Shown here piece by piece: positions 3,623 through 41,458 of a stretch of DNA of 48,196 nt. Below the pieces are notes generated by a model, which had not been told where the DNA came from, searched no databases, and saw only the letters and a program-made list of their open reading frames with translations. The stretch covers positions 1 through 48,196 of the forward strand of contig CANJPT010000017.1 in the NCBI GenBank assembly GCA_947476195.1. Direction: 5' to 3'. Each line of letters begins with the position of its first letter. Positions within the stretch are counted from its first letter, which is position 1. Both the position numbers and the translations under genes were made by a program. This DNA is from Lewinellaceae bacterium. Lineage in GTDB: Bacteria > Bacteroidota > Bacteroidia > Chitinophagales > Saprospiraceae.

Positions 3623-5020
3623 ATGCCTATAAAAATTAACCGTCGCTCCTTTCTCCAAAATTCTGCATTAGCCAGCGCAGCTATGATCCTGCCAAATATT
3701 AGCAGCGCAGAACCTACCGTATCACCGAATACCAAAATTAAAAAATATCCCTCTCGGAGTAGACTCCGCGTAGGTTTTATCGGGGTAGGCCTTCGTGGTC
3801 AAAATCACGTGGAAGCAGCCCTTATGCGTAATGACTGCGACGTGGTTGCAATTGCCGACCCAAATCAAAGTATGTTAGCTGATTGCCTGAAAATGATCAG
3901 CGAAGCTGGACATAAAAAACCAGATGTCTACGACAAAGGAGCGTATGATTATCTCAGACTTTTGAAAGACAAAAGTATCGATGCAGTACTAATCGCAACA
4001 CCTTGGGAATGGCATACCCAACAATGTGTCGCAGCCATGCAAGCCGGGAAGTTTGTCGGTACAGAAGTATGCGGGGGGTTCTCACTCGATGAATGCTGGC
4101 AATTGGTGAACACACACGAAGCGACCGGATCACACCTGATGTTTATGGAAAACGTTTGTTACCGCCGCGATGTCATGGCTGTGATGCAAATGGTACGAAA
4201 TGGTTTATTCGGCGAACTCATTCACCTCGAAGGAGGATATGAACATGACCTGCGTGGTGTGAAATTTAATGACGGAAAAACACCTTATGACTCTGGCGTA
4301 GAGTTCGGTGAAAAGGGTTACTCCGAAGCCAAATGGCGGACCAAACATTCCGTCCACCGTAATGCCGACCTCTACCCTACCCACGGTGTCGGCCCGATTG
4401 CAATGATGACCAACATTAATCGGGGTAACAGATTCTTGCATTTGACTGCTACCGCAAGTAAGTCTCGCGGCCTGCACGATTATGTAGTGAACCATCCACA
4501 AGGCGGACCAAACCATCCCAATGCTCAGGTGCAATTCAATCTTGGCGATAAAGTGACCACCATTATTAAAACGTCTAATGGCGAAACTGTGATGCTTTCA
4601 CACGACACAAGTTTGGCTCGGCCATATTCGCTTGCCTTCAGGGTACAAGGCACCCGTGGCATTTGGATGGACCTCAATAAAAGTCTGTTGCTTGATGGTG
4701 TTACTGATGCACACAAATGGTCAGAAGCAAAAGCATGGCTTGATAAATATGACCATCCACTTTGGCAAAAATTTGGAGCCGATGCCAAAACAGCTGGCCA
4801 TGGAGGAATGGATTTCTTTGTATTCAATCACTTCGTAGAATCCGCCAAACGTGACCAAGCTCCTCAAATAGACGTATATGATGCCGCAACCTGGCTGGCA
4901 ATTACGCCACTTTCAGAAGCTAGTATTGCTACCGGAAGTAGCCCACAGGCTTTTCCTGATTTCACCCGCGGACGCTGGACAGAACGGAAGCCGGACTTTG
5001 CTTTTGGAGACGAATTTTAA
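3623..5020 (+). CDS. Tat-exported Gfo/Idh/MocA-family protein, glycoside hydrolase 109 type
   Basis: A 465-residue protein. The N-terminus 'NRRSFLQNSALASAAMILP' is a twin-arginine signal, so it is exported folded, which fits a protein that loads NAD in the cytoplasm. The Rossmann fold begins at about residue 50 ('RVGFIGVGLRGQNHV') with the second strand ending 'VVAIADPN'. The sequence 'YEHDLRG' and the C-terminal 'GHGGMDFFVFNHFVE' are hallmarks of family GH109, whose founding member is an NAD-dependent alpha-N-acetylgalactosaminidase. Substrate is inferred from family only; many relatives are uncharacterised. Single gene after a terminator with its own promoter. The candidate origin region begins right after its stop. 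Confidence 0.85.
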   Translation: MPIKINRRSFLQNSALASAAMILPNISSAEPTVSPNTKIKKYPSRSRLRVGFIGVGLRGQNHVEAALMRNDCDVVAIADPNQSMLADCLKMISEAGHKKPDVYDKGAYDYLRLLKDKSIDAVLIATPWEWHTQQCVAAMQAGKFVGTEVCGGFSLDECWQLVNTHEATGSHLMFMENVCYRRDVMAVMQMVRNGLFGELIHLEGGYEHDLRGVKFNDGKTPYDSGVEFGEKGYSEAKWRTKHSVHRNADLYPTHGVGPIAMMTNINRGNRFLHLTATASKSRGLHDYVVNHPQGGPNHPNAQVQFNLGDKVTTIIKTSNGETVMLSHDTSLARPYSLAFRVQGTRGIWMDLNKSLLLDGVTDAHKWSEAKAWLDKYDHPLWQKFGADAKTAGHGGMDFFVFNHFVESAKRDQAPQIDVYDAATWLAITPLSEASIATGSSPQAFPDFTRGRWTERKPDFAFGDEF

Positions 5021-5288
5021 GGTTAAATAATCGGATATTATTTTCTCTCAACGAAGCACTTACCACCAACTCAAATATTCCATATTTGTTTTATGATCTA
5101 CACAATAAACCACTTTTTTAGCTCAATAAAGCCAAATATTCCCTTGTTTAAAAAATGTAACGTACTCATTATTAAACAATTAAGCCATTAAACGGTTTGT
5201 GTTAAACACTTACTAACAGCTCTTTTTTAAAAGATCCTAATCTTCTCATTATCAAGAGATTTGGAAAGTGGTCAATGTTATAATCTGG

Positions 5289-5297
5289 TGTGTATAA
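5289..5297 (-). promoter_or_regulatory. DnaA box, perfect match to TTATNCACA
   Basis: TGTGTATAA on the forward strand, that is TTATACACA on the reverse strand. Eight bases separate it from the next box, which points the other way. Confidence 0.7.
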
Positions 5298-5305
5298 CCC
5301 GTCTT

Positions 5306-5314
5306 TTATCCACA
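5306..5314 (+). promoter_or_regulatory. DnaA box, perfect match to TTATNCACA
   Basis: TTATCCACA, the strongest E. coli R1-type DnaA box. It is followed at once by a weaker TTTCCACAT. Confidence 0.75.
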
Positions 5315-5371
5315 GGTTTCCACATCAGTACATCCAAACATACCGTAAAACAGTCTATACACCTTAAGTCT

Positions 5372-5380
5372 TGTGTACAA
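5372..5380 (-). promoter_or_regulatory. DnaA box, 8 of 9
   Basis: TGTGTACAA, reverse strand TTGTACACA, one change from consensus. Confidence 0.5.
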
Positions 5381-5505
5381 CCCTGTGCTTATAAACGTCA
5401 GTTAACAACACCAAATAAATTGAAATGTCTAACAACCCTCTTCTCCACTTTTTTAGGATTCTTTGTTGAAAAACATACAAGTCATTGATCCTAAAAAGAT
5501 TTCTT

Positions 5506-5514
5506 TGTGGGTAA
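5506..5514 (-). promoter_or_regulatory. DnaA box, 8 of 9
   Basis: TGTGGGTAA, reverse strand TTACCCACA, one change from consensus. Confidence 0.5.
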
Positions 5515-5526
5515 GCTGTTGGCAAG

Positions 5527-5581
5527 GTTGGTAACTATACTTAATATAGAATTTACATTGGCAAGTTATGACGTTACCAAC
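5527..5581. repeat. 9-bp inverted repeat with nested direct repeat beside the DnaA boxes
   Basis: GTTGGTAAC (5527-5535) is the exact reverse complement of GTTACCAAC (5573-5581). A direct repeat TTGGCAAG occurs at 5519-5526 and 5558-5565. It could bind an origin protein or regulate ctaA, whose promoter lies 100 bp on. Confidence 0.6.
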
Positions 5582-5681
5582 AAACTAACAGCCCTTATAA
5601 TGGCCCTTAGGGTTATTTTTTAAACCATCTAAATTTCATAGAAGGCAGTCAGAAATGTATAACTCAAAGCTTTTTCAGGTC

Positions 5682-5689
5682 TACTTTTG
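5682..5689 (+). promoter_or_regulatory. -7 promoter element (TACTTTTG) of ctaA
   Basis: TACTTTTG fits TAnnTTTG and lies 23 bp before the ctaA ATG. Confidence 0.55.
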
Positions 5690-5712
5690 TTTGAAGTTTT
5701 TTAAAACACTAC

Positions 5713-6795
5713 ATGACGAATTCAATTTTCAATTTTCGGTTTGCGGACGAATTTCAAATTACCCGCGCGGTCAAGATCTGGCTCATAGCTGGCTTGGTTA
5801 TGATCTTCTTTCAAATTGTGATCGGTGGGGTAACACGTCTTACCGGGAGTGGACTGAGTATTACCCGTTGGGAAATCGTGACAGGAAGTATTCCACCACT
5901 CAACGAAGCCGATTGGATCTCTGAGTTTGAATTATACAAACTGACGCCTCAGTATCAAAAAATCAATCAGGGTATGACGGTAGGCGAATTTAAATTCATC
6001 TACTTCTGGGAATACTTTCACCGGCTCTGGGCACGCTTGATGTTCTTTGTTTTTATCATTCCTTTTGTCTGGTTTTTAGGACGTGGAATGTTATCCAGGC
6101 TGCTGCTGCCCAGGATGTTGACCGTAGTAGGACTGGCGGGTCTGGAAGGATTCTTTGGTTGGGCGATGGTGGCCAGTGGTCTGATAAAACGTCCTTGGGT
6201 AAATGCTTACAACCTGACCTTACACCTTTGCATGGCACTGGTCATATTCACCTATTTACTCTGGACCTGGTTTTTAGCCGTTTCGCCCAAATTGCCTGAT
6301 TTTTCGAGTGTTCGTTTCAGGCGCTTTGCCTTATACTTATTTGGGTTAGCTTTTTTTCAGATTGCACTTGGTGCCATTATGTCCGGGTCCAAAGCGGGAC
6401 TTTTTTTTCCGACCTGGCCTGATATGAATGGGGAATATTTTCCAACTGTTTTGCTTGATGGAAATCATTGGACCGCTGATAGTTTTATACATTATGATAC
6501 GAATCCGTTCATGCCCGCGCTGATTCATTTTTTACATCGTAATACGGCGTACTTATTAACAGCTCTGGTGTTGTACTTTGTGGTGAAGATTTCCAAGGAG
6601 CCTATCTCTCCTATGTTGCGGCGTAGTGGGGGCTGGCTGATTGCTGCGATCAGTACACAGGTTTTGCTGGGTATATTTACGGTGATCAACTGTAAGACTA
6701 AAATCCCGGTCGATCTGGGTGTAGCGCACCAGGCAGGGGCCGTGGTATTGCTGAGTTTAGTGTTGTGGGTGTGCTATCAGTTGCGTAAAAAATAG
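5713..6795 (+). CDS. ctaA: heme A synthase, COX15/CtaA family
   Basis: A 360-residue polytopic membrane protein, about eight transmembrane helices in two similar halves. Heme A synthase oxidises the methyl group of heme O to a formyl group, giving heme A for aa3-type cytochrome oxidase. Conserved features are seen in order: 'IGGVTRLTGSGLSITRW' after helix 1, the heme-ligand histidine segments 'EYFHRLWAR' and 'NLTLHLCMAL', then 'LIHFLHRNTAY' and 'GVAHQAGAVV' in the second half. The long loop after helix 1 ('WEIVTGSIPPLNEADW') marks the COX15-like (type 2) group. It stands alone; no ctaB or cytochrome oxidase genes are adjacent. The ATG at 5713 follows a -7 element by 23 bp. A forward frame at 5655-5924 overlaps in another frame and looks like a shadow. 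Confidence 0.92.
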   Translation: MTNSIFNFRFADEFQITRAVKIWLIAGLVMIFFQIVIGGVTRLTGSGLSITRWEIVTGSIPPLNEADWISEFELYKLTPQYQKINQGMTVGEFKFIYFWEYFHRLWARLMFFVFIIPFVWFLGRGMLSRLLLPRMLTVVGLAGLEGFFGWAMVASGLIKRPWVNAYNLTLHLCMALVIFTYLLWTWFLAVSPKLPDFSSVRFRRFALYLFGLAFFQIALGAIMSGSKAGLFFPTWPDMNGEYFPTVLLDGNHWTADSFIHYDTNPFMPALIHFLHRNTAYLLTALVLYFVVKISKEPISPMLRRSGGWLIAAISTQVLLGIFTVINCKTKIPVDLGVAHQAGAVVLLSLVLWVCYQLRKK

Positions 6796-6926
6796 CCTGG
6801 ATCCTGCTGGATATTTAGATGTTAGAGATTGGGTTGATTACGAAAGTGCATAATTTTTGCGTTTGATAGCTCAAGTACAATCTCTAGCGTATAAATATAC
6901 AGCAGTCTTTTTTTGTTCCTTTTTCC

Positions 6927-10014: not shown

Positions 10015-12240
<2,226 letters not shown>

Positions 12241-12294
12241 TTAATAAATTGTTGGTAATGCAGACGATTGCCTAAATAGGCATAGACTAAGGGA

Positions 12295-12325
12295 CAAAAT
12301 TAGCCCAATAAAAACATAGCTCAAA
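12295..12325 (-). promoter_or_regulatory. katG promoter, -33 and -7 elements
   Basis: On the reverse strand, TTTG (12322-12325) is followed after 19 bp by TAATTTTG (12295-12302), matching the Bacteroidota TTTG-N17-20-TAnnTTTG promoter. The -7 lies 63 bp before the katG ATG. The -33 overlaps the OxyR-type operator. Confidence 0.7.
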
Positions 12326-12360
12326 ATAATAATTTCTATACTTACATAGTTTAAGGCTAT
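12316..12360. promoter_or_regulatory. OxyR-type operator between katG and oxyR
   Basis: ATAG (12346-12349) and CTAT (12357-12360) are separated by 7 bp, which is the OxyR half-operator ATAG-N7-CTAT. A second CTAT (12336-12339) lies 6 bp to its left and another ATAG at 12316-12319. E. coli OxyR sites have four such tetranucleotides over ~37 bp. It ends 5 bp before the oxyR start, so oxyR is probably autoregulated, and it covers the -33 of katG. Confidence 0.6.
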
Positions 12361-12364
12361 ACTT

Positions 12365-13315
12365 ATGACTTTACAACAATTAGAATATGTCCTGGCGGTA
12401 GACGCCTACAAACAGTTCTCAACAGCTGCTGAAAAATGTTTCATCACGCAGCCTTCCCTGAGTGCTATGATTCAAAAACTTGAAGACGAGTTGGGCGTCA
12501 AAATTTTTGACAGGAGCAAGCAACCCATCATGCCAACAGAGCTTGGAACTGAGATCATTGCACAAGCACGTTTGATTTTAAATGAATCCGAAAATTTAAA
12601 ACAAATGGTAAAGGATCGCATGGAAACCGTGAGTGGTGAATTGCGGTTGGGCATCATTCCGACCTTAGCCCCCTATCTTTTGCCCTTATTTTTAAAAGAT
12701 TTTTCTGAAAAATACAGTGATCTGAAGCTAAGTATTACAGAATTAACGACCGAAAATATCATCACTCATTTGAAAAAAGGGATCTTAGATGTTGGTATTA
12801 TGGCCACCCCATCCAAAGACAACCAGCTTTTTGAAGACCCTATTTTTTACGAAGAATTTGTGGTTTATGCACCCAATGAAAACGCAATCCTTAAAAAGGA
12901 TTATTTACTTGCTGAAGATATCGATGCCAACCTGTTGATGCTTTTGCAGGAAGGACATTGTATGCGGGCGCAAGTCATTAACCTTTGTGCATTGCAAAAA
13001 ACCCAAAGTTCGCTCAGTAATATCAGTTACGAAGCGGGCAGTCTTGAAACCTTGAAACGATTGGTAGAGGCACATTCGGGCATCACCATTCTTCCTCATT
13101 TAGCCGTTTTGGATATGGATGAAGACCAGATGCAGTATATTCGGTTCTTCAAACCACCCGCTCCGGTACGGGAGATTAGCCTTGTGACACATCGAAGTTT
13201 GGCAAAAAAAAGGCTTATAACGGTCTTAAAGGAGGCTATTTGTGATAACTTACCGCAATCAATAAAGAAAACCAATAAAAAACGGGTGGTAGATTTTGAC
13301 ATAAAGTATTTGTAA
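12365..13315 (+). CDS. oxyR: LysR-family peroxide sensor OxyR
   Basis: A 316-residue regulator. An N-terminal winged helix-turn-helix (residues 1-60, 'QFSTAAEKCFITQPSLSAMIQKLEDELG') is followed by the two-lobed sensor domain. Cys199 and Cys208 lie in 'EGHCMRAQVINLC', the same residue numbers as the redox disulfide pair of E. coli OxyR, so this is OxyR and not a general LysR protein. Peroxide would oxidise the pair and switch on katG. The gene is divergent from katG, and its start codon lies 5 bp from an OxyR-type site. The last ~20 residues are lysine-rich ('KKTNKKRVV') and extend past the usual end. Confidence 0.95.
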   Translation: MTLQQLEYVLAVDAYKQFSTAAEKCFITQPSLSAMIQKLEDELGVKIFDRSKQPIMPTELGTEIIAQARLILNESENLKQMVKDRMETVSGELRLGIIPTLAPYLLPLFLKDFSEKYSDLKLSITELTTENIITHLKKGILDVGIMATPSKDNQLFEDPIFYEEFVVYAPNENAILKKDYLLAEDIDANLLMLLQEGHCMRAQVINLCALQKTQSSLSNISYEAGSLETLKRLVEAHSGITILPHLAVLDMDEDQMQYIRFFKPPAPVREISLVTHRSLAKKRLITVLKEAICDNLPQSIKKTNKKRVVDFDIKYL

Positions 13316-13445
13316 CCCGTAGCAAAGGTTCATTCCTGATACGGCCTGACATTGGTTGCGCACCTGTCAAAAAGAGTCAGATGCCCGTAATGTTTTTAGC
13401 GATCAGAAAATTAGTAGACCAATTCTACAATCAAATTAAGAAGCA

Positions 13446-14579
13446 ATGGACTCAGAGCAAACCAAGCTTAAAGAACTGGTCAGGTTATTCTTAAAACTTG
13501 GGATAATTGGCTTTGGTGGTCCTGCAGCACATGTTGCGATGATGCAGGCAGAAGTTGTAAAGAAGAGAAAGTGGTTGACACATCAGCATTTTCTGGATCT
13601 GGTTGGGGCGACCAATCTAATACCAGGCCCCAACAGCACCGAAATGGCCATTCATATTGGTCAGGAAAGAGCTGGCTGGAAAGGCCTGGTCGTTGCGGGC
13701 TCCTGTTTCATTTTGCCTTCGGTCATCATAACGGGTATTTTTGCCTGGCTTTACAAACAATATGGGCAGCTTCCTGATGTACAGCCATTTGTTTATGGAA
13801 TCAAACCGGCCATTATTGCCATAATCCTTGGGGCGGTATTCCCGCTTGCAAAGCGATCCATGAAGTCTTTGGAGCTTATAATCCTTGGTATACTTGTTTT
13901 GGTCTGTTCCTTATGTAGCTTCAATGAAATTTATCTGATGTTTGGCGCAGGCCTGATTGCCTTACTGCTGGCTTGGAGGAGAAATCATAAGGTTACCCAC
14001 ACCCCGTTTTTTTTTCCATTCACCTTGCTTCAGATATCCAAAACTAGTCTTCTCACTGCAACGAACCTTAACTTATTTTGGATCTTTCTGAAGATTGGTT
14101 CAATCCTTTATGGGAGCGGGTATGTGTTGTTTGCTTTTCTGGATACCGAGCTTGTTTCGACAGGACTTTTGTCCCGTCAGCAATTGATTGATGCGATCGC
14201 TGTAGGACAGTTTACGCCGGGTCCAGTTTTTTCGGCGGTCACTTTTATCGGGTATCAGATCAATGGATGGACCGGCGCAGTCGTTTCAACTATCGCAATT
14301 TTTGTTCCGGCATTTCTTTTCGTTGCCTTATTGAATCCCATCGTAAAAAAACTGCGAAACTCGGATCTATTTTCAGCATTTCTGGATGCTGCAAATGTAG
14401 CCTCGGTCGCTATTATAGTTTCCGTCTGTTTTTCAATGGCTAAAGATACCCTTACGGACTGGCGGACCATTGTTATTGCCGCTTTAAGTATTCTTATAAC
14501 ATTTTGTTTTAGCAAAGTAAACAGTGCTTGGGTAGTCTTGGGCGCTGCATTGATGGGTTCTCTGTTGTTGTTGATATGA
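13446..14579 (+). CDS. chrA: chromate transporter, two-domain CHR family
   Basis: A 377-residue membrane protein with two homologous CHR halves. The first has 'GIIGFGGPAAHVAMMQAEVV' and 'ATNLIPGPNSTEMAIHIG'. The second has 'YGSGYVLFAFLDTEL', 'LLSRQQLIDAIAVGQFTPGPVF' and 'TFIGYQ'. About ten transmembrane helices are predicted by eye. Characterised members export chromate; many homologues are untested. It follows oxyR on the same strand after 130 bp, but I see no shared regulation. Confidence 0.9.
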   Translation: MDSEQTKLKELVRLFLKLGIIGFGGPAAHVAMMQAEVVKKRKWLTHQHFLDLVGATNLIPGPNSTEMAIHIGQERAGWKGLVVAGSCFILPSVIITGIFAWLYKQYGQLPDVQPFVYGIKPAIIAIILGAVFPLAKRSMKSLELIILGILVLVCSLCSFNEIYLMFGAGLIALLLAWRRNHKVTHTPFFFPFTLLQISKTSLLTATNLNLFWIFLKIGSILYGSGYVLFAFLDTELVSTGLLSRQQLIDAIAVGQFTPGPVFSAVTFIGYQINGWTGAVVSTIAIFVPAFLFVALLNPIVKKLRNSDLFSAFLDAANVASVAIIVSVCFSMAKDTLTDWRTIVIAALSILITFCFSKVNSAWVVLGAALMGSLLLLI

Positions 14580-40339: not shown

Positions 40340-41458
40340 TTAATTATTCAGCATCACCGGCATCACAAGCATCAGGATGTCGCGGTCAGTGCTGTTTTCT
40401 TCTACCGGAGTCAAAATTCCTGCGCGGCTTGGGCTGCTAAATTCCATCTGTACATCATCAGAATCAAGTATCCCCAGCATTTCAGCTAAAAACCGGGCAT
40501 TGAAAGCGATTTTCATGGGTGCACCGTTGTAGGTGCAAGGAATTTGTTCGGTGGCCTCGTTTGAAAAATCGAGGTCTTGTGCGCTCACGGTCAGGCTTTT
40601 GTCAGTCAGTTCAAACACCACCTGGTTGGTAGTTTTGTTGGCGTAGATAGCGATACGCTTCAGCGAATTCTGGAAGTCGCTGCGATTGGCCGTCATGTTA
40701 TTCGGGTTATCGATCGGGATGACAGCATTGTAATCCGGGTAGCGGGCATCAATAAGCCGACAAACCAGCTTCATACCTCCGAAGGCAAAAAAGGCATTTG
40801 CTTTATTGAAAGAGATTGTTACACCTTCTCCGCCTGGAAGGGCATTTTTGAGTAGGTTTAGGGCTTTTTTGGGTATAATGAAAGTAGTACTGACTTCTCC
40901 TGCAAGGTGGTGTGTGGTGTACTTCACGAGTTTATGCGCATCAGTAGCCACACAGGTCAGCTTGTCATTTTCGATCTGGAAATACACCCCGGTCATGGCA
41001 GGTCGAAGCTCATCCGAAGAGGTAGCAAATACAGTATTGTTGATAGCGTCAAGCAAATATTTGCTGTTGATCTTCACGATATCTACGCCGTCAGGTTCCG
41101 GGATATTGGGGAAATCCTCACCGTTTTCTCCAGCCAGTTTATATTTACCATAGGAGGAAGTAATCTCGATGTTCCAGTTTTCGGCGTTTACGCTGAAAGT
41201 AATAGGCTGTTGTGGCAGCGCCTTAAGTGTATCGAGCAGTATTTTAGCGGGTACGGCGACAGAGAAATTGTCGTCAGCCATCACATCAATGGTCGTAGCA
41301 ATGCTTGTTTCCAGGTCAGTGGCAGCGATGGTAAGTTTTTTATCTTCGATCTTGAAAAGAAAATCCTCCAGAATAGGTAACACTGGGTTGGAACCAATGG
41401 CGCCATTGGCGATCTGGATTTGCTTCAGGAGTTCGGAAGAGGAGACGCTAAATTTCAT
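40340..41458 (-). CDS. dnaN: DNA polymerase III sliding clamp (beta subunit)
   Basis: A 372-residue protein of normal length with the three-domain clamp pattern. 'MKFSVSSSELLKQIQIANGAIGSNPVLPILEDFLFKI', 'SSDELRPAMTGVYFQI', 'VATDAHKLVKYT', 'PKKALNLLKNAL', 'RLIDARYPDYNAVIP' and the C-terminal 'LMLVMPVMLNN' are family hallmarks. The ring tethers the polymerase to DNA. In many phyla dnaN is beside dnaA at oriC; here it stands alone about 35 kb from the candidate origin. Divergent from the M16 gene. Confidence 0.97.
   Translation of the reverse strand: MKFSVSSSELLKQIQIANGAIGSNPVLPILEDFLFKIEDKKLTIAATDLETSIATTIDVMADDNFSVAVPAKILLDTLKALPQQPITFSVNAENWNIEITSSYGKYKLAGENGEDFPNIPEPDGVDIVKINSKYLLDAINNTVFATSSDELRPAMTGVYFQIENDKLTCVATDAHKLVKYTTHHLAGEVSTTFIIPKKALNLLKNALPGGEGVTISFNKANAFFAFGGMKLVCRLIDARYPDYNAVIPIDNPNNMTANRSDFQNSLKRIAIYANKTTNQVVFELTDKSLTVSAQDLDFSNEATEQIPCTYNGAPMKIAFNARFLAEMLGILDSDDVQMEFSSPSRAGILTPVEENSTDRDILMLVMPVMLNN

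Follow-up and report, generated by a model that had tools for sequence, protein, structure and literature searches.

A candidate chromosomal replication origin beside the haem A synthase gene ctaA, far from dnaA, in Saprospiraceae bacteria

Where does the chromosome of this Saprospiraceae bacterium begin to replicate, and could the starting point lie beside ctaA, the gene for haem A synthase, far from dnaA? The window analyzed here, 48,196 nucleotides long, is the entire contig C17 of a 224-contig draft genome (4.76 Mb, 97% complete). A sequence-only reading of this window had proposed an origin in a gene-free gap of 692 bp, and the gap is found at 5021-5712, bounded by open reading frames (ORFs) at 3623-5020 and 5713-6795. 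The left neighbor carries a GH109 C-terminal domain; the right neighbor, on the plus strand, is ctaA (COX15-CtaA), whose three best matches in a set of 80 ctaA loci are from Saprospiraceae metagenome bins (86, 81 and 79% identical). About 24 of 33 genes to the right had been said to run away from the gap; the majority holds, the count itself being 23 of 33 non-overlapping ORFs of at least 100 amino acids, and all four such ORFs on the left point toward the gap, which counts against an origin. To the right, at 10015-14579, are divergent genes for the catalase-peroxidase KatG and an OxyR-like LysR regulator and, after them, one for a chromate transporter.

The gap contains two perfect DnaA boxes in opposed orientation with 8 bp between them, TTATACACA (5289-5297, minus strand) and TTATCCACA (5306-5314, plus strand), and two boxes matching at 8 of 9 positions, TTGTACACA (5372-5380, minus) and TTACCCACA (5506-5514, minus), all four as previously described. 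In addition, there is a one-mismatch box, TTTTCAACA (5464-5472, minus), a near-box, GTTTCCACA (5316-5324, plus), which has one mismatch to TTTTNCACA and starts 10 bp after the start of the box at 5306, and a decayed box, TTACCAACA (5574-5582, plus). When the gap is shuffled with its dinucleotides preserved, two or more perfect boxes turn up 7 times in 5000, and four or more boxes with no more than one mismatch 55 times in 1000; we therefore take the perfect pair as the signal and the one-mismatch boxes as weak evidence by themselves. The box count that tolerates one mismatch is ordinary across the window (56 against 48.4 expected), and the best weighted 450-bp box cluster of the whole window falls in the gap. 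Genome-wide, perfect TTATNCACA sites number 174, against 124 for the reversed control, and the head-to-head pair TGTGNATAA-N(0-30)-TTATNCACA has a single occurrence in the 4.76-Mb draft, the one in the gap. Among the matches listed (100 of the 174 sites), there is a head-to-head pair on contig C8 as well, its boxes separated by 37 bp, and pairs on one strand occur on contigs C24 and C27, with starts 18 and 24 bp apart. The gap was also inspected by eye for a DnaA-trio beside its boxes, and none is claimed. A cluster of DnaA boxes beyond chance, as looked for in a bacterial chromosomal oriC, is thus present.

The same kind of cluster recurs upstream of ctaA in the family. In 27 family relatives (the 29 best-scoring of 70 with a ctaA match, minus L023 and L026, which have short flanks), we counted 43 exact boxes in the kilobase before ctaA where 1.94 are expected, and 192 where 42.2 are expected if one mismatch is tolerated; 21 of the 27 have at least one exact box. 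A k-mer count made without prior on 28 upstream regions, window included, returned GTGGATAA, TATCCACA and TGTGGAAA as the top 8-mers. The same count also picked out ACTAACAG, present 13 times against 0.6 expected, in 10 of the 28 regions.

A wider set of 66 loci gives densities of the TTWTNCACA box: 3.09 per kb (163 boxes in 52.8 kb) over the 800 bp that precede ctaA, 0.73 inside the gene, 1.28 in the 800 bp after it and 0.087 at more than 1.8 kb from it (77 boxes in 887.5 kb). These 66 are the 80 loci minus nine Flavobacteria-like ones and five with less than 700 bp upstream (L121, L124, L156, L165, L173), and some of the 71 loci that are not Flavobacteria-like are titled other than Saprospiraceae. 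The 27-relative and 66-locus sets are not independent, there are shared contigs (L134/G030, L138/G058, L157/G023, L160/G018 and L172/G042), and distances and bins are counted from the ends of the ctaA match, which can fall some codons inside the gene. Exact boxes upstream of ctaA are absent in 9 of the 66 loci; the draft genome G040, of the same genus as the window, has none of the exact form TTATNCACA within 1 kb upstream and six at one mismatch. The nine loci set apart as Flavobacteria-like by title (L144, L176, L181, L186, L187, L188, L189, L193 and L198, although the title of L188 does not say so) have 3 boxes in 7.2 kb upstream, that is, no cluster.

Alignment of the window with eight relatives shows how the array has been kept. 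Mean column identity is 54%, yet the box at 5289 is a TTWTNCACA box in all nine sequences; at 5306 the core alone is kept in the aligned relatives. Several relatives have a box at the position of 5464, the letters of the box at 5506 are identical in L119 and one change further away in L120, and the position of the decayed box at 5574 is occupied by TTATCCACA or TTTTCCACA in six of the eight relatives (L119, L120, L125, L126, L128 and L132). In L125, L126, L132 and partly L123, boxes stand about 430, 385, 260, 205 and 145 bp before ctaA. The window retains the first of these positions; at others (5464, 5574) its boxes have one mismatch or are decayed, and its array thus looks like a worn copy of a richer one. 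A conserved word, ACTAACAGC, follows the last upstream box in the window (5584-5592) and in relatives.

Besides the boxes, the gap has candidate sites for strand opening. The AT-rich left flank with three repeats that had been described is there: TTAAAC occurs at 5172, 5188 and 5202 (spacing 16 and 14 bp; 5172-5207, plus strand, 72-75% AT), 60-bp windows from 5081 to 5260 have an AT fraction of 0.72-0.75, and three TTAAAC within 40 bp arose in 0 of 1000 shuffles of the gap. This stretch is a candidate unwinding element. A second candidate unwinding region, 5513-5663, lies where AT content peaks in the 66 loci, at 0.69-0.70 between 200 and 50 bp before ctaA. Both inverted repeats reported earlier are also present (5450-5459/5488-5497 and 5527-5535/5573-5581). 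Close to the gene, TACTTTTG (5682-5689, plus strand) is a probable ctaA promoter, as it fits TAnnTTTG, the -7 consensus of Bacteroidota promoters. We also considered a short ORF upstream of the gene, at 5655, which has a similar form in the three closest sequences, and set it aside: wider relatives keep the TACTTTTG stretch in a manner more promoter-like than reading-frame-like.

A likely promoter at a gene start that boxes adjoin raises the alternative that the ctaA boxes are a DnaA-controlled promoter or a site that titrates DnaA, as datA does in E. coli, and not an origin. The further boxes inside and after ctaA, described below, would suit such a role. It does not predict the linkage to parS or the skew switch at ctaA in 5 of 12 relatives, both given in the following paragraphs, and the nine Flavobacteria-like ctaA loci without a cluster also speak against it. 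We regard it as very improbable.

The parS sites are the second line of evidence for an origin. As the sequence-only reading had noted, two exact sites lie 4.6 kb from the perfect box pair; both are TGTTCCACGTGGAACA on the plus strand (602-617 and 642-657), and they are the only parS found in the bacterium's own genome, searched with TGTTCCACGTGGAACA at up to one mismatch and with TGTTNCACGTGNAACA exactly. A parS close by is a common, though not strictly defining, companion of oriC, and the candidate has one. Among eight family genomes chosen for few contigs, seven have an exact parS, and all six of these with a ctaA match have it within 16 kb of ctaA. In an order-level draw, exact parS sites occur in 55 of 79 genomes and are absent in 24. 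We compared distances in 48 of these 55 genomes; sorted by eye, 7 belong to the family and 41 to other families. Among the matches listed, 6 of the 7 family genomes, the window's own included, have parS within 20 kb of ctaA (in G041 the two are on different contigs), against 1 of 41 from other families (G089, less than 20 kb, on one contig), a comparison made mostly on drafts, in which different contigs do not prove distance. In four of the other-family genomes (G094, G092, G152 and G123) parS and ctaA share a contig at a distance of at least 50 kb, and in the remaining ones they are on different contigs. One genome, G006, is counted in both the eight-genome and the order-level comparison. Of the nine Flavobacteria-like loci, L144 alone has parS near ctaA, at about 3 kb; it carries the title Flavobacteriaceae and is possibly a mislabelled bin.

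GC skew provides a third line of evidence. The cumulative minimum of the window falls at 5448, inside the gap, with a depth of -53; it is shallow because the contig ends 5 kb to the left of the gap. Because this bacterium's genome is split over 224 contigs, we sampled skew at chromosome scale in relatives instead. G062 is a single contig of 7.51 Mb; of its sampled 20-kb stretches, all 15 between 6.1 Mb and 2.34 Mb, passing through zero, are negative and all 14 between 2.36 and 5.745 Mb are positive, so that all 29 stretches flanking ctaA have the sign expected for an origin there; the stretch straddling ctaA itself is at +0.005. The minimum of the contiguous 2.30-2.40 Mb lies at 2,349,196, which is 460 bp upstream of the ctaA match. 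In G057 (two contigs), 11 of 12 stretches fit an origin at ctaA, the exception being 3.00 Mb (-0.009), and over 40 contiguous kb the minimum falls at 2,052,643, which is 828 bp upstream of ctaA and inside a run of ten perfect boxes within 340 bp. The same-genus draft G040 has its local minimum 306 bp upstream of ctaA.

Across 12 relatives, the local minimum is within 1 kb upstream of ctaA in five (G062, G057, G018, G033 and G040), where 0 to 6 of 5000 shuffles of 1-kb blocks gave one as deep within 2.5 kb of ctaA. In the other seven (G042, G055, G030, G006, G031, G016 and G116), the minimum of the stretch analyzed is 12-39 kb off ctaA, and in G016 and G116 the skew is negative on both sides. 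The check that had been proposed for the gap, a whole-chromosome skew minimum at the boxes, has a mixed outcome: the local minimum agrees in five relatives and disagrees in seven, and the agreement in the window comes with a left arm of 5 kb. Five of the seven bear on another reading, in which replication starts not at ctaA but in its neighborhood, tens of kb away at most, near parS or at some other place, with the ctaA boxes as an accessory element: the minimum is 12-20 kb from ctaA in G042, G055, G030, G006 and G031, and parS can be as far as 16 kb from the gene. The five minima within 1 kb of ctaA argue against such a displaced start, as does the fall of box density to about background beyond the ctaA array, in the 4 kb binned on each side, and we consider it even less probable than promoter control or titration.

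The remaining question is whether the true origin adjoins dnaA or dnaN, as the gene-order rule of many other phyla would have it. That neither gene is adjacent to the gap had been stated at the outset and is confirmed, with the correction that dnaN, for the DNA polymerase III beta clamp, is in the window (40340-41458, minus strand), 35 kb from the candidate origin; dnaA of the same genome is on another contig, C1. The candidate is beside neither gene and so is not an origin of the dnaA-dnaN type. In the same-genus genome G040, dnaN and dnaA are about 5 kb apart on one contig (C14:1654-9329); in the window's genome they are on separate contigs. The presence of dnaN in the window and its closeness to dnaA in G040 would favor an origin at these genes. 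Against it, eight dnaA loci hold 0-2 TTWTNCACA boxes each in 2.9-4.4 kb, with the upstream side cut by the contig start in G062 and G057. Both of these near-complete genomes start at dnaA (base 25 of G062:C1 and base 209 of G057:C1), and their skew minima are 2.35 and 2.05 Mb away from it; the G062 samples nearest to dnaA on either side (100 kb and 0.5 Mb) both have negative skew. The cumulative skew minimum of the window is at 5448, not at dnaN, and dnaN is 0.5 Mb (G062) and 165 kb (G057) from ctaA and on a separate contig in six other relatives. An origin at dnaA or dnaN is thus exceedingly improbable.

Taken together, the box cluster, the parS linkage, the recurrence of boxes upstream of ctaA in the family and the skew switch in some relatives support the original proposal. 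We are highly confident that the gap at 5021-5712 is the upstream, main part of the chromosomal oriC of this Saprospiraceae bacterium. The candidate origin very probably lies beside, perhaps around, ctaA and far from dnaA, in an arrangement common to many relatives.

Boxes are not confined to the upstream side. When boxes are binned in the 66 loci, an upstream zone extends from -800 to 0 with a peak of 5.45 per kb at -200 to -400, a second zone, with 55 boxes in 64 loci or 4.30 per kb, covers the first 200 bp past the ctaA match, and beyond both zones the density is about background out to 4 kb on each side; ctaA sits within a box array in many relatives. Of 64 loci, 27 have one or more exact boxes in the second zone and 20 have two or more. 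In 15 of these 20, and so in 15 of the 64 loci, two minus-strand boxes are exactly 12 bp apart, and in 14 of the 15 the pair lies no further than 35 bp from where the ctaA match ends. A minus-strand TTTTCCACA pair with this spacing directly follows ctaA in L129, L130, L131, L135, L136, L147 and L161, and several loci with the 12-bp pair are titled Lewinella or Phaeodactylibacter. Downstream of ctaA, the 27 family relatives have 17 exact boxes and 90 at up to one mismatch, as raw counts without a shuffle control of their own. Inside the gene, 66 ctaA sequences contain 50 boxes, where 200 synonymous shuffles gave 8.46 on average and never more than 18, which rules out coding constraint as their entire cause. 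Within +400 to +800 of ctaA, in-gene boxes recur at about +530 and +705 (for example, in L142, L163 and L164). The window has a single one-mismatch TTATNCACA box in the second zone, TTATGCACT (6845-6853, minus strand), possibly a remnant of the relatives' downstream cluster, and its downstream part is degenerate.

The occurrence of boxes before, inside and just after ctaA suggests, from sequence comparison, an origin that is split around the gene. A fuller version of this idea is tentative, and we lean slightly away from it: the Saprospiraceae origin might consist of an upstream array (-800 to 0), in-gene boxes that selection keeps at synonymous sites and, in some members of the family, a phased 12-bp pair after the gene, with ctaA taking the place that dnaA has in the split origins of other phyla and perhaps tying haem A synthesis physically to DnaA occupancy and replication timing.

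If the gap is an origin, DnaA made from its distant gene would bind the boxes around 5289-5324 and the weaker boxes further to the right, and one of the AT-rich elements, 5172-5207 or 5513-5663, would open. Two forks would leave the opened origin, the rightward one moving in the direction in which ctaA is transcribed, and ParB on the two parS sites 4.6 kb away would then separate the new origins. DnaA binding, unwinding and firing in this organism are inferred.

The ctaA landmark would allow the origin to be placed in many draft and metagenome-assembled Saprospiraceae genomes, a placement that oriC plasmids and growth rates estimated from read depth both depend on. The two near-complete family genomes begin at dnaA, about 2 Mb from the apparent start of replication. 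Because DnaA boxes appear to be under selection within a respiratory gene and behind it, a connection of haem A synthesis with the control of replication can be put to the test.

Origins away from dnaA are not in themselves new, since they are in print for Bacteroidetes (PMC4755523). That paper, citing DoriC, describes the oriC of Bacteroidetes as commonly far from dnaA. The oriC that it gives for chromosome 1 of Prevotella intermedia is, like ours, a DnaA-box cluster far from dnaA, at a GC-skew switch such as some relatives have at ctaA; it differs in belonging to another lineage of the phylum and in being an Ori-Finder prediction, and the account of it does not mention ctaA or boxes flanking a gene (PMC4755523). 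Origins in gut bacteria likewise do not always go with dnaA, and there, too, parS clusters and skew mark the origin; that work has two Bacteroidetes among its 12 strains, concerns other families and, in its account of them, has no anatomy at the level of boxes (PMC10197239). The literature searched yielded nothing on the oriC of Saprospiraceae or on an origin at ctaA, and DoriC may hold Saprospiraceae entries; ctaA as a landmark with boxes before, inside and after the gene seems to be new. The nearest parallel to the latter arrangement is in Helicobacter pylori, where the order is oriC1-dnaA-oriC2. The bipartite oriC of H. pylori and its relatives (PMC5043019, PMC8235120) has two DnaA-box clusters around a gene, as does the ctaA locus in some relatives of our bacterium. 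The Saprospiraceae arrangement differs from it: the intervening gene is ctaA and not dnaA, there are boxes inside the gene as well, and in the window the downstream cluster is degenerate.
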